A program made the translations under genes and the position numbers. The notes beneath the pieces were generated by a model. That model worked only from the letters and a program-made list of their open reading frames with translations. It was not told the origin of the DNA and made no database searches. This document shows, piece by piece, positions 8,135 through 54,861 of a stretch of 64,000 nt of DNA; positions within the stretch are counted from its first letter, which is position 1; every line of letters starts with the position of its first letter. Source of the DNA: Anaeromyxobacter diazotrophicus (GTDB lineage Bacteria > Myxococcota > Myxococcia > Myxococcales > Anaeromyxobacteraceae); assembly GCF_013340205.1 (NCBI RefSeq), contig NZ_BJTG01000004.1, positions 248,001 to 312,000 on the forward strand, in the 5' to 3' direction.

Positions 8135-8785
8135 ATGCCCGCCTCGCGCTCGGGAGCCGGTTCGGGGTCACGGTCGTCGGGCTCGACCTCGCGGTCGAGG
8201 TCGGGTTCGGGCTCGCGGTCCGGATCGCGGTCGAGCTCGCGATCGCGGTCGCGGTCGAAGCCGGCCTCACGCGCGCCGTCTCCCTCGCCGCCGCCCCCCC
8301 AGCGCCTCTGGGCCCCCTGGCGCCTCGAGTTCATCCACGCCCCCAAGCCGTCCGGCTGCATCTTCTGCCGCTTCCCCTCCGAGCCCGAGGCGAACGACCG
8401 GCAGAACCTGGTCGTCCACCGCAGCGCGCGCTCGTTCGCGGTGCTGAACCGCTACCCCTACAACTCGGGCCACCTCATGGTGATCCCGCGCGCCCACGTC
8501 GCCGACCTCGACCTGCTCGGCGCGGAGGAGCTCCACGACCTGCACGAGGAGCTCCGGCTCGCCTCCCGGGTCCTGCGCGCCACCTACCAGCCGGAGGGGC
8601 TCAACATCGGGATGAACCTGGGCCGGGTGGCGGGCGCCGGCATCGCCGACCACCTCCACTACCACCTCGTCCCGCGCTGGAACGGCGACACGAACTTCAT
8701 GCCGGTGCTGGCGGACACGCGGGTCATGATCGAGCACCTCGACGGCGCCTGGCAGCGGCTGCGCGCGGGGTTCGAGCGGGCGTGA
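8135..8785 (+). CDS. HIT-family nucleotide hydrolase/transferase with Arg/Ser-rich N-terminus
   Basis: 216 residues. Residues from about 58 on are a HIT domain of the AP4A-phosphorylase/hydrolase type. CIFCRF may hold zinc, NRYPYNSGHLMVIPRAH is the conserved core, and ADHLHYHLVPRW carries the HxHxH triad whose middle histidine forms the nucleotidyl intermediate. The first 50 residues are almost only Ser, Arg and Gly, encoded by a degenerate hexanucleotide repeat; this is not part of the family. GAGGT at 8124-8128 is a plausible ribosome site for ATG 8135. A shorter protein starting inside the repeat cannot be excluded, but no good start is seen there. Confidence 0.85.
   Translation: MPASRSGAGSGSRSSGSTSRSRSGSGSRSGSRSSSRSRSRSKPASRAPSPSPPPPQRLWAPWRLEFIHAPKPSGCIFCRFPSEPEANDRQNLVVHRSARSFAVLNRYPYNSGHLMVIPRAHVADLDLLGAEELHDLHEELRLASRVLRATYQPEGLNIGMNLGRVAGAGIADHLHYHLVPRWNGDTNFMPVLADTRVMIEHLDGAWQRLRAGFERA
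8143..8260 (+). repeat. Degenerate hexanucleotide (TCGNGG-like) repeat in coding DNA
   Basis: Roughly 17-19 units of a six-base pattern, such as TCGCGG, TCGAGG and TCGGGC, run through the 5' end of the HIT gene and encode alternating Ser, Arg and Gly. Because the unit is six bases, gain or loss of units keeps the reading frame. A related six-base array occurs at 12211-12300. Confidence 0.75.
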
Positions 8786-11905: not shown

Positions 11906-12616
11906 ATGCGCGAGAACAGCCGCGTGCGGCGACAGCGTTCGGGGCTCGCGCTCGGCGCCACGCGCGCGGCCGCGCTGCTCGCGGTGGCGCTGGCGATGCT
12001 GGGCGGGGCGTTCCTGCTCGGCGTGTCGGTCGGCCGCCAGGCCGCGGCGGTGGCGCCGGCGACGCCGGTGGCGACCCGCGCTGCCCTCGACCACCTCGAC
12101 GACCTGCCGGCGATGCGCGACGAGGCGCCGCCGGTGCTCAAGGCGCCGCAGGTGCTGACCGACACCCGGCCGGTCGAGAAGGCGATGCCGCTCGCGCCGG
12201 CGAAGCTGGTCCCGACCCCGACCCCGACCTCGACCCCGACCTCGACCTCGACCCCGACCTCGATCCCGACCTCGACCTCGGCGGCGACCGCGACCGCGGC
12301 GGCCGCGAGCCCGAAGCAGCCGGGCGCGTCGCCTCCTTCGCCGCGCGCCGGCGCGGAGAGGGCTTCCCCACCCGCCGCGCCTCCCGGCGCCTTCACCATC
12401 CAGGTGGCCTCGTCCGCCAGCCGCGCCGACGCGGAGCGCTTCGCGGCGCGCCTCGCCGGCAAGGACCCCCGCGTCGTCGCGGCGGACGTCCCCGGGAAGG
12501 GCCGCTGGTACCGCGTCCAGCTCGGCTCCTACCCCACGCAGGAGCTGGCCCGGAAGGCGCTGCCCGAGCTCGCCCGCGCCGGCGTCCGCGGCCTGGTGGT
12601 GACCGCGTCGCGGTGA
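11906..12616 (+). CDS. SPOR-domain membrane protein
   Basis: 236 residues. A basic N-terminus precedes one membrane segment (AALLAVALAMLGGAFLLGVSV), then a low-complexity linker with a Thr/Pro/Ser repeat, and a C-terminal SPOR domain (FTIQVASSASRADAERF and then WYRVQLGSYPTQELARKA). SPOR domains bind denuded peptidoglycan at division sites, so a role in cell-envelope or septal functions is likely, as for FtsN/DedD-like proteins. The linker repeat is encoded by a hexanucleotide array. It follows argS by 135 bases and precedes a cupin gene; the three are not obviously related. Confidence 0.82.
   Translation: MRENSRVRRQRSGLALGATRAAALLAVALAMLGGAFLLGVSVGRQAAAVAPATPVATRAALDHLDDLPAMRDEAPPVLKAPQVLTDTRPVEKAMPLAPAKLVPTPTPTSTPTSTSTPTSIPTSTSAATATAAAASPKQPGASPPSPRAGAERASPPAAPPGAFTIQVASSASRADAERFAARLAGKDPRVVAADVPGKGRWYRVQLGSYPTQELARKALPELARAGVRGLVVTASR
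12211..12300 (+). repeat. Hexanucleotide (YCGACC) repeat in SPOR gene
   Basis: About 13 units of the six-base pattern CCGACC or TCGACC, with a few variants at the end, encode alternating Pro/Ser and Thr in the linker of the SPOR protein. Frame-neutral length variation would lengthen or shorten the periplasmic linker. Confidence 0.75.
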
Positions 12617-19458: not shown

Positions 19459-19785
<327 letters not shown>

Positions 19786-19835: not shown

Positions 19836-20246
19836 GCGTGACTCCGGGCAGACCCCTTCGGCTCGGCGGTTCGCCCGGCCCGCGCGCGCCGGGGCACGAC
19901 GCGGTACGTGGCGATACGCGCCGGCGTGTCCGAGGGGGGGCGCGAAGCGGCGCACGGCTCCGGCCGCGTGGTCCTCGCGCCGCGCGTGTAGCTCGGGGCC
20001 ACGCCGCGCGACGCGTGACCCGGGACGGCCGGCGAAAAACTCGCTCGCGCGGTGGCGGGTGCACGAACTGAACGCCGCGCTCGCTCAGACAGTTTCGCCG
20101 GCCGACACGGCACACAGGGCGCGGCGTGGCGGCCACGGGCCACGTGGGCGGCGCTGCGGAGGCGGCCTTCGCCGCGCGCCGCTTCGCGCCCCACCGCGCG
20201 GCGTGTTCGCGCTCGCCGCCAGCCCGCTCGCGGAGCGACGCCGGGA
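19836..20246. other. Gene-free stretch upstream of fdxA
   Basis: About 410 bases without a convincing gene on either strand. Open frames here have no start signals and no recognisable protein. The DNA holds many CGCG-rich short inverted segments but no ordered repeat apart from the palindromic element that begins at 20247. No RNA gene was recognised. Confidence 0.5.
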
Positions 20247-20462
20247 GGCGGCGGGGTGGCCCTCCGCCGGAGCGCAGGCCGACCTGCGGAAGAGCACGCT
20301 CGGTGAACAGGCGCTGCACCGCCGGTGCCGCGCCGCGCGCGTTTTTCCCGCGCCTCCGCGGCGCGGCACGTTGCGGTGCAAGCCGCCGAGCGTTTCTGAA
20401 CCGGCGGCCGTAGCAATCCGGCAGGTCGTCGCCGAGCACCGCCGGAGGGCCACCCCGCCGCC
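20247..20462 (-). repeat. Large palindromic intergenic repeat, copy A
   Basis: A 216-base imperfect palindrome, in inverted orientation relative to copies at 28549 and 54556. The terminal arms GGCGGCGGGGTGGCCCTCCG and their complement form a 20-bp perfect stem (20247-20266 with 20443-20462). Inside lie a GACCTGC / GCAGGTC stem and a central hairpin with GCACCGC / GCGGTGC and GTGCCGCGCCG / CGGCGCGGCAC stems. The segment CAGAAACGCTC is conserved among copies. It lies 107 bases from the inositol-phosphate synthase stop, in the space before fdxA. No target duplication and no reading frame of interest were seen. Confidence 0.85.
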
Positions 20463-20569
20463 GACCCCCGGCAACCCCGCGAAGGAGTACCCCGCGGGCG
20501 TCCGAAAGAGCACCGCCGCCGGCCCCAGGGAGGCCGGCGGCGGGAGTACCACCTCAGGGATCGCGGACC

Positions 20570-21892
<1,323 letters not shown>

Positions 21893-22073
21893 GTGTGTGT
21901 TCTCCTCGCGCGCTGTGGCGCAGACATGCGCGGCGGCCTCACCCGCGATCCGGCCTGCAGAGCGAGGGGACCGATGCGACGGGTGGGGTTCCGGCGCGCG
22001 CCGGCTCGGCAGGGTACACTTCCTCGACCATGGGATCCAAGCATCGAACGGGTGGCGGGATGGCGCAGGCGGC

Positions 22074-22445
22074 ATGAGAGCGCTCGTCCTCTTCCTCCGG
22101 GCGCCGGAATGGGAGGCGCGGCACCACGCGATCTCGCTCGCCATCACGGCCGCGGCGCTGGGCGACGAGGTGCACCTGGCGCTCTTTGGGGGGGCCCTCT
22201 CGGCCTTCGCCCGGGGCCAGTTCGGCGACGGCGCCCCCGAGGCCGCGCGGGCCGCCCGCGTGCCCCCGCTCGACGCCACCCTGGCCGAGGCCCGGCGCGA
22301 CCTGGGGGTGCGGGTGGTGGCCTGCGAGACCGCCCTCAGGCTGGCCGGCCTCGACCCGGCGAGCGCGGTCCCGCCGCTCGACGCGGTGGTGAGCCTGCCG
22401 GCGCTGTGGCGCCTGGCGCAGCAGGGCCGCGCACTGACCGTGTAG
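22074..22445 (+). CDS. DsrE-family-like small protein
   Basis: 123 residues resembling the DsrE/F fold: an N-terminal strand RALVLFLRAPEWEA, then ISLAITAAALGDEVHLALFGGAL as in small sulfur-relay or peroxiredoxin-like proteins, and a C-terminal helix. The cysteine in RVVACETAL is placed where DsrE-like proteins often have their reactive cysteine. The gene is divergent from the inositol-phosphate synthase and 73 bases before a ThiF/MoeB gene, at the head of a sulfur-related block. Assignment to DsrE is by pattern, not by search. Confidence 0.65.
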   Translation: MRALVLFLRAPEWEARHHAISLAITAAALGDEVHLALFGGALSAFARGQFGDGAPEAARAARVPPLDATLAEARRDLGVRVVACETALRLAGLDPASAVPPLDAVVSLPALWRLAQQGRALTV

Positions 22446-27598: not shown

Positions 27599-28483
27599 AT
27601 GAACGACGCTCTCGACACGCAGGCCGCCACCCGCGAGTGGCTCTTCAAGGACGGCGTCCAGGTCTTCGGCCCCATCCCGGAGGCGCGGCTCGTGGAGCTG
27701 CTCCTCGAGGGACGCGTCGGCCCGGGCACCCTGGTGGCGAACGAGGATGGGGCCTGGCGGCCCGCGTCCGAGGTGCCGGGGTTCCTCGTCCACCTGCGCA
27801 AGGCGGAGGCGCGCGCCCGGGTCGAGGCCGAGGTGACCGGCGCGGCGCGGCTCGCGCGGCGCCGCACGGCGCTGCAGGGCTCGGCGCTCGCGGTGGTGAT
27901 CCTCCTCCTCGTCACGCTGGTGGGAGTGGGCGCGTTCCTCCTCGCCACGCGGCGGTGGGAGCGGCGCAGCGCGCTGCTCGACGACCTGGGCGACGGCATC
28001 GCCATCACCTCCGCGCGCGTCGGCAACGGCGCGCGCTCGAGCGCGGCCGACGACGAGATCGCCATCCCCGACCTGCCCGCCGGCGCGCCGGCCGGCGCCA
28101 GCGCGGCCCCGAAGCCTCACGCCGCCGCCGCCGCGCGCGGCGCGCGGCCGGGCGCGGCCACCGGCTCGGCCGAGGGCGGTGACCTCGTCATGGCGCAGTA
28201 CGACCCGCGCCGGATCCAGGCCGTGGTGGCGCGCCAGCAGGGCTCGCTCGCGCCGTGCCTGCGGGACGAGGCGAAGCGCTCCCCCGAGTTCGCCGGGGAC
28301 ATCCCCATCGAGTTCGCGGTCGGGAACGACGGGCGGGTGGCGGCGCTCTGGATCGACGAGCCGCGCTTCAAGTCGGGCCCGCTGCGCGAGTGCCTCTTCG
28401 CGCGGCTGCGGGAGTGGAGCTTCGACCGCTTCCCGGGGCAGCGGCCGGTGGTGTCGCTCTCCTTCCGGATCTCGCCGCTCTAG
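27599..28483 (+). CDS. GYF-like / AgmX-PglI C-terminal domain membrane protein
   Basis: 294 residues. Parts in order: a GYF_2-like domain (EWLFKDGVQVFGPIPEARL and GAWRPASEVPGFL), one membrane segment near residue 100 (GSALAVVILLLVTLVGVGAF), a low-complexity Ala/Gly linker, and a TonB-like AgmX/PglI C-terminal domain (RIQAVVARQQGSLAPCL, then DIPIEFAVGNDGRVAALWI and LREWSFDRFP). AgmX/PglI belongs to myxobacterial gliding-motility sets, but this domain is widespread in that phylum, so motility cannot be concluded. Copy B of the palindromic repeat follows 65 bases later. Confidence 0.8.
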   Translation: MNDALDTQAATREWLFKDGVQVFGPIPEARLVELLLEGRVGPGTLVANEDGAWRPASEVPGFLVHLRKAEARARVEAEVTGAARLARRRTALQGSALAVVILLLVTLVGVGAFLLATRRWERRSALLDDLGDGIAITSARVGNGARSSAADDEIAIPDLPAGAPAGASAAPKPHAAAAARGARPGAATGSAEGGDLVMAQYDPRRIQAVVARQQGSLAPCLRDEAKRSPEFAGDIPIEFAVGNDGRVAALWIDEPRFKSGPLRECLFARLREWSFDRFPGQRPVVSLSFRISPL

Positions 28484-28548
28484 CACGCGGTTCCCGAGGT
28501 CCCCTCGCCGCGCCGCGAGCCGCGCCGCCAGCCGCCCTAGGAGCGGCT

Positions 28549-28785
28549 GCGAGCGGGGCTGCGGGGTGGCCCTCCGGCGGTGCTCGGCCAACGACCTGCC
28601 GGGTTGCTACGGCGGGCGGTTCAGAAACGCTCGGCGGCTTGCACCGCATCGTGCCGCGCCGCGAGGACACCGGCGGCTCGCGCGCCGGCGCGGCACCGGC
28701 GGTGCAGCGCATGGTCCATCGGACGCGGATCTTCCGCAGGTCGGGCCTGCGCTCCGGCGGAGGGCCACCCCTCCGCCCCGCTCGC
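28549..28785 (+). repeat. Large palindromic intergenic repeat, copy B
   Basis: Core 28561-28770, similar to copies A and C, with an added outer arm GCGAGCGGGG (28549-28558) complementary to CCCCGCTCGC (28776-28785). Inner stems match copy A: GCACCGC / GCGGTGC and GTGCCGCGCCG / CGGCGCGGCAC, with a further CGCGAG / CTCGCG stem near the tip. It fills most of the 383 bases between the AgmX-like gene and the gene at 28867; nothing else is seen in that space. Confidence 0.87.
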
Positions 28786-28866
28786 GCGGGCGGCTCGCTT
28801 CGCTTCGCGGACGACAGGCGGGTTCGCCGCGGCTCGCCTGTCAGGGGATCCCGCTACAACGTCGCC

Positions 28867-54439: not shown

Positions 54440-54555
54440 GCAGGATCCGCCCGTCTCGAGGTGTCGCATCTCCCTCGCCCCGCGAAGCGGGGAGAGGGGC
54501 CGCTCGAGCACGCTCGACTTCCCGGAGGCGTGTGGCAGCTGCCTCCGAGCGGGTG

Positions 54556-54773
54556 CGGCGGGGTAGCCCTCCGGCGGTGCTCGGCCAACGACCTGCCGGG
54601 CAAGATACGGCGGCCGGCTCAGAAACGCTCCGGGCCGAGCAACGCATCGTGCCACGCCGGCGAGGTGCGCGAGGTCCTCGCGTCGGCGTGGCACCGGCGT
54701 TGCTGGCGGCAGTGGGTCGATCGGCGGTCGCCCGCAGGTCGGCCTGCGCTCCGGCGGAGGGCCACCCCGCCGC
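54556..54773 (+). repeat. Large palindromic intergenic repeat, copy C
   Basis: 218 bases in the same orientation as copy B. Outer arms GCGGCGGGGTAGCCCTCCG and the complement of CGGAGGGCCACCCCGCCGC pair with one A-C mismatch. The inner stems read GCAACGC / GCGTTGC and GTGCCACGCCG / CGGCGTGGCAC: relative to copies A and B, one C-G pair became A-T in each of two stems, with both sides changed. A GCGAGG / CCTCGC stem caps the hairpin. The space from bfr to tetR (463 bases) holds no gene; this repeat and the tetR promoter are the only features. Confidence 0.87.
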
Positions 54774-54861
54774 CCCCTGGCGAGCGCCGCTGATCGGCGA
54801 ACGGTAGGGCCATCCGCGCTCCCCCCTGCGGCGGCAAGACCACGCCGCCCCCGCGCCCCGC

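Follow-up and report, generated by a model that had tools for sequence, protein, structure and literature searches.

Three palindromic sequences lie between genes in the 64-kb window (the whole stretch of Anaeromyxobacter diazotrophicus DNA that was analysed) and raise the question of whether they are copies of a non-autonomous mobile element or members of a structured RNA family, the two readings that the original prediction left side by side. The copies at 20247–20462 (inverted), 28549–28785 and 54556–54773 are real: they align over ∼213 columns with 84% mean column identity, and the arms GCGGGGTGGCCCTCCG/CGGAGGGCCACCCCGC, the GACCTGC/GCAGGTC stem, the segment CAGAAACGC and the central hairpin that they had been claimed to share are all seen in the three aligned sequences. 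With a covariance model derived from 30 copies, they scored 189–196 bits and the rest of the window no more than ∼14 bits, except for the opposite strand of the same elements. The prediction of a new palindromic intergenic family is supported, and of its two readings we favour the first: the sequences probably constitute a new family of non-autonomous mobile elements, MITE- or REPIN-like, of ∼260 bp and without any gene.

With its outer flanks, copy 1 occupies 20225–20480 on the minus strand (core 20251–20458, subfamily A; alignment and covariance model, 189 bits) between a ferredoxin-like gene (19459–19785, minus strand) and the myo-inositol-1-phosphate synthase gene (20570–22279, minus strand). 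Copy 2 extends over 28536–28796 on the plus strand (core 28561–28773, subfamily A; 189.6 bits), between a GYF_2-domain gene (27599–28483, plus strand) and the next plus-strand gene, and copy 3 over 54535–54795 on the plus strand (core 54558–54770; 195.9 bits), with a ferritin-like gene on one side and a tetR gene on the other. The neighbours had been named broadly correctly (myo-inositol-1-phosphate synthase, a GYF_2-domain protein, a ferritin-like protein and TetR). Next to copy 1 there is a separate inverted repeat of 58 bp (19931–19988/20141–20198, 72% complementary), and a REP-like palindrome, CGCCCCGCGAAGCGGGGAGAGGGGC, is found beside copy 3 (54476–54500), with similar sequence flanking the loci L021, L028, L030 and L122.

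The 5′ arm of copy 2, GGGGTGGCCCTCCG (28563–28576, plus strand), pairs with its 3′ arm, CGGAGGGCCACCCC (28758–28771, plus strand). The GACCTGC box (28593–28599, plus strand), also present in the cousin family described below, and GCAGGTC (28737–28743, plus strand) form the two sides of the inner stem, and between them lie the conserved segment CAGAAACGCTC (28622–28632, plus strand) and the central hairpin (28640–28706, plus strand). In this hairpin, which has a conserved asymmetric internal loop and shows compensatory changes, the 5′ strands TGCACCGC (28640–28647) and GTGCCGCGCCG (28651–28661) pair with GCGGTGCA (28699–28706) and CGGCGCGGCAC (28686–28696), respectively. Of the six arms in the window, five contain the arm word GGGGTGGCCCTCCG exactly and the sixth with one mismatch; within one mismatch, it occurs nowhere else in the window. 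The 13–14 bp outer arms pair as terminal inverted repeats in nearly all copies, with an imperfect extension by the inner and outer flanks. The predicted single-strand fold of copy 2 was more stable than 200 out of 200 shuffles (z scores of −5.1 as RNA and −6.1 as DNA). No reading frame is open in all copies and core lengths split equally modulo 3; the claim that neither a transposase nor any other protein is encoded holds for the core copies, which have no coding frame.

A covariance model search of the window's own genome (G000; 4.83 Mb, 17 contigs) revealed that dozens of intergenic copies exist, with 31 full-length ones at 135 bits or more and about five remnants. These are a copy with an internal deletion (C5:182507–182618), a rearranged piece (C3:394089–394288), two 98-bp 5′ pieces directly before full copies on C3 and C5, and an arm on C16. 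The core length of 208–212 bp given in the original prediction was close to the 208–215 bp that we measured in this genome (most commonly 210–211 bp), but the limits of the element needed widening, as the conserved unit goes ∼20–26 bp past the core on each side, most clearly in subfamily B, and with these outer flanks amounts to ∼260 bp. Two subfamilies can be told apart by the continuation of the arm (GGCGGTGCTCGG in A, GGCGTCGCTCCGGAC in B), with intermediates that include copy 3 of the window, whose arms are A-type and whose central hairpin is B-type. The unit of subfamily B takes in GGCAGCGGTTCCGAGCGGGCG on its left and CGCCCGCTGGCGGGCGTTGCCGTCCGCAGGTCG on its right, flanks that run into an array of GGTCGM hexamers; in subfamily A, conservation of the outer flanks is weak. 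Tandem GGTCGM arrays are far above chance in the window (12199–12306 and 8176–8257) and adjoin many elements in this genome and in G002, on the right flanks of subfamily B copies and on the left flanks of several G002 copies. There are also four inverted pairs of copies in G000 (C4:33610–34105, C7:6395–6933, C1:633149–633792 and C4:391471–392115), all with their right ends facing each other; two of these pairs are duplicates of one unit.

The distribution of the family is patchy. In G002, which represents another genus of the same taxonomic family, our first model matched seven central hairpins; this genome has a homologous family of its own, ∼225 bp long, with 16 copies and additional partial ones (17 model matches). 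The families of G000 and G002 have in common the AACGACCTGC box, a long outer stem and a central hairpin whose asymmetric internal loop is AAC/CG, whereas the sequence of the outer stem and arms in G002 (GGTCCTCCGCGCCCC/GGGGCGCGGAGGACC) is entirely different. A third subtype, with two copies on C27 of G002, keeps a 5′ box and a GGGAGCAGCGGGC box and differs in the outer stem and central region. The left arms of G002 occur also as tandem 44-bp repeats. No full-length copy was found by blastn in any of 40 relatives, same-genus G001 included, and a combined covariance model matched only G000 and G002 in 79 genomes from the order and 97 from the class, two overlapping samples of a size at which the stricter filters can miss weak matches. 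The family is absent from 22 of the 24 genomes of the taxonomic family, and the phages, plasmids and viral contigs that were searched contained no match. An exact-pattern scan of genome contigs for the central hairpin gave 12 matches in unrelated taxa, which had weak, mostly hairpin-only model scores and were taken as chance.

Across 42 sequences from both genomes, 99.7% of the cells in the central stems were paired and both sides had changed in 81 cells; covariation scored above 500 out of 500 shuffles, with far lower values in slid controls. The outer stem in G002 has compensatory changes too, mostly in single copies (L114, for example), and many of the compensatory changes go back to a small number of events inherited in common. 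Such changes might also result if imperfect palindromes were corrected arm to arm. Short conserved boxes beside covarying stems in two genera, together with the location after stop codons (where most G002 copies stand), would suit a family of structured non-coding RNAs (sRNAs or 3′-UTR elements) spread by duplication with the transcript fold conserved, although we consider this unlikely. If a fixed-strand transcript were selected, G-U should exceed A-C on one strand. By cells this is the case in G002 on the given strand (11 vs. 2), but the total by cells (29 vs. 18) is dominated by three pairs, and the number of pairs showing G-U vs. A-C on the given strand is 4 vs. 6 in G000, 4 vs. 2 in G002 and 8 vs. 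8 together, so that there is no clear strand signal. Copies between codirectional genes are also split, 10 sense to 8 antisense, and both sets of counts speak somewhat against a cis RNA of fixed strand. That the family is so patchily present speaks against a needed function, and comparison with Rfam gave no match to the elements at gathering score, nor any at E ≤ 1 over three copy-holding loci. The paired form may be DNA or RNA. The family is real and, judged by Rfam and the papers searched, had not been listed before.

Several observations speak for mobility. Copies that are 98–99% identical stand at different, unrelated loci (L018/L021 and L004/L005). An inverted dimer of ∼500 bp has been duplicated as a unit (C4:33610–34105 and C7:6395–6933), with similarity that stops at the outer ends (GATCGGTTCCG) and no visible flanking duplication; some of the duplication is segmental, as in L023, L026 and L028, which have a stretch of more than 1 kb in common. 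The region of copy 2 is syntenic in the same-genus G001 and in G009, and the element is absent from both gaps: G001 has a ∼127-bp gap, and the flanking genes of G009 overlap by 4 bp, with ATGA containing the stop of the upstream one and the start of the downstream one. These orthologous gaps have diverged and the empty-site junctions cannot be read exactly; since all other genomes of the taxonomic family except G002 are without the elements, the simplest reading is an insertion in the G000 lineage. In line with the statement that there is no target duplication, no direct repeat at a fixed offset was detected over 30 copies apart from conserved element sequence, with the ends and empty sites only approximately placed. 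The patchy distribution, the absence at syntenic sites, the 98–99% identical copies at unrelated loci and the lack of a consistent strand preference favour a mobile element, and we infer that it moved in the recent past.

The intergenic location of the copies was borne out, mostly at the 3′ ends of genes. For 47 copies, the neighbouring genes are convergent in 27 cases, codirectional in 18 and divergent in 2, as compared with 9, 48 and 8 of the 65 gaps in the window (genes were called by a simple home-made caller based on G+C by codon position). The convergent excess (27/47 vs. 9/65) has a Fisher p of 1.5e-6, or 5e-6 without duplicated loci, and the divergent deficit a p of 0.19 (not significant) against all gaps and 0.03 against gaps of at least 50 bp; these values are rough because the background is a single 64-kb window. 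REPs have the same preference for gaps between convergent genes (PMC3733652). This enrichment and the scarcity of divergent gaps could mean that the copies are REP/BIME-like elements that serve in bidirectional termination, mRNA 3′-end protection or supercoil handling at convergent genes and are kept by selection, not mobility. Such an explanation appears improbable: relatives lack the elements in their syntenic gaps, with no visible replacement there, 22 of the 24 genomes of the taxonomic family have none, and the conserved internal boxes seem more than a terminator would need.

For the mobile element that we prefer, two long inverted arms, the inner stem and the central hairpin would allow one strand to fold as a single large hairpin. 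An enzyme supplied in trans would recognise the folded strand and insert new copies, and these would persist mostly at the 3′ ends of genes, as selection would act against insertions in genes and promoters. The elements may have a secondary role in ending transcripts in both directions or in stabilising mRNA, which has been proposed for REP sequences. Between the two lineages, the arms and central stems have been rewritten, whereas pairing and a few boxes stay. One might speculate, with little confidence, that the elements are a mobile structured nucleic acid whose mobilising machinery recognises the fold more than the sequence; if this were true and the recognised form were RNA, copied without a resident reverse transcriptase, the mechanism of spreading would be new.

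Gene-free repeats such as ERIC, NEMIS and REPIN are widespread in bacteria, and the mobiliser is known for few of them. The MITE-like small mobile repeats ERIC/RU-1, Correia/NEMIS, RUP, YPAL/RU-2 and CIR (PMC2229807) are likewise short, gene-free, intergenic and multi-copy, with inverted ends that pair 5′ with 3′, a stable fold and a mobiliser that is mostly unknown. They are 100–200 bp long, however, compared with ∼260 bp here, and the present family is very G+C-rich, has a large conserved internal hairpin with boxes and no detected target duplication, and was not related to them in the searches run. REPIN and REP-BIME elements, which are moved by RAYT (PMC3116915, PMC3733652), also have inverted arms that fold to a hairpin, sites after genes and between convergent genes, dimer units and genomes with Y1 (HUH) transposase genes. 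By comparison, the present family has far fewer copies and is not built from two self-palindromic REPs of 20–40 bp and a constant tag; its arms, inspected in the alignments, are neither self-palindromic nor marked by a constant GTAG or CGTC tag. G000 and G002 represent two separate amplifications with different arms and the same fold, so that the parts needed for mobility could be read by comparison, and the family offers a clean set of copies in which to test hairpin action at convergent gene ends.

Candidate mobilisers were sought in the genomes themselves. Blastn with two copies retrieved only elements and remnants from G000; no longer element with the same ends was found there, and hence no autonomous partner. 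Two G002 arms 9.4 kb apart were rejected as ends of an autonomous transposon, as ordinary metabolic genes lie between them and they belong to two copies of another subtype. The arrangement of a two-part structured core within inverted outer repeats is similar to a1-msr-msd-a2, and the copies might be retrotransposed from a retron msr-msd-like RNA, for which msDNA-like repeats of Nannocystis exedens, reportedly described by Lampson and Rice in 1997 and Lampson in 2002, would be a myxobacterial precedent; judged by title, these too are a repeated structured sequence in a myxobacterium. We regard this as very improbable: no reverse transcriptase (RVT_1, PF00078) was detected in G000 or G002, whereas G001, without the element, has a match. 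An HNH-like gene (by eye, CQVPGC...HAHHVLFRSHGGGDELDNQLGLCAFHH) without a Pfam match is multi-copy (L026 1828–3225; also L023, L028 and L157), and an element or remnant arm lies at its 3′ end in four places. It was rejected as a partner, being common to three copies only, through segmental duplication, with a remnant arm beside a further paralogue.

Genes for a Y1/HUH transposase-like protein of ∼300 aa with an HFHLVL motif (L080 1315–2298; L174–L191) are multi-copy across the taxonomic family, with three matches in G000 and seven in G002, the latter including fragments or distant ones; the Pfam Y1_Tnp score of 21.8 bits is below the 23-bit cut-off. Many have ACCCAGAGTA upstream and one to several copies of TACTCTGGGT downstream, with a variant in G002. 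None of the element loci has this motif, and the three Y1 genes in G000 and three in G002 so compared have no element within ∼2 kb; RAYT/Y1 is therefore not an evident mobiliser and was set aside, although a Y1/HUH transposase may act in trans on a different hairpin. The Y1 genes and their flanking motifs look like a REP-type system of their own.
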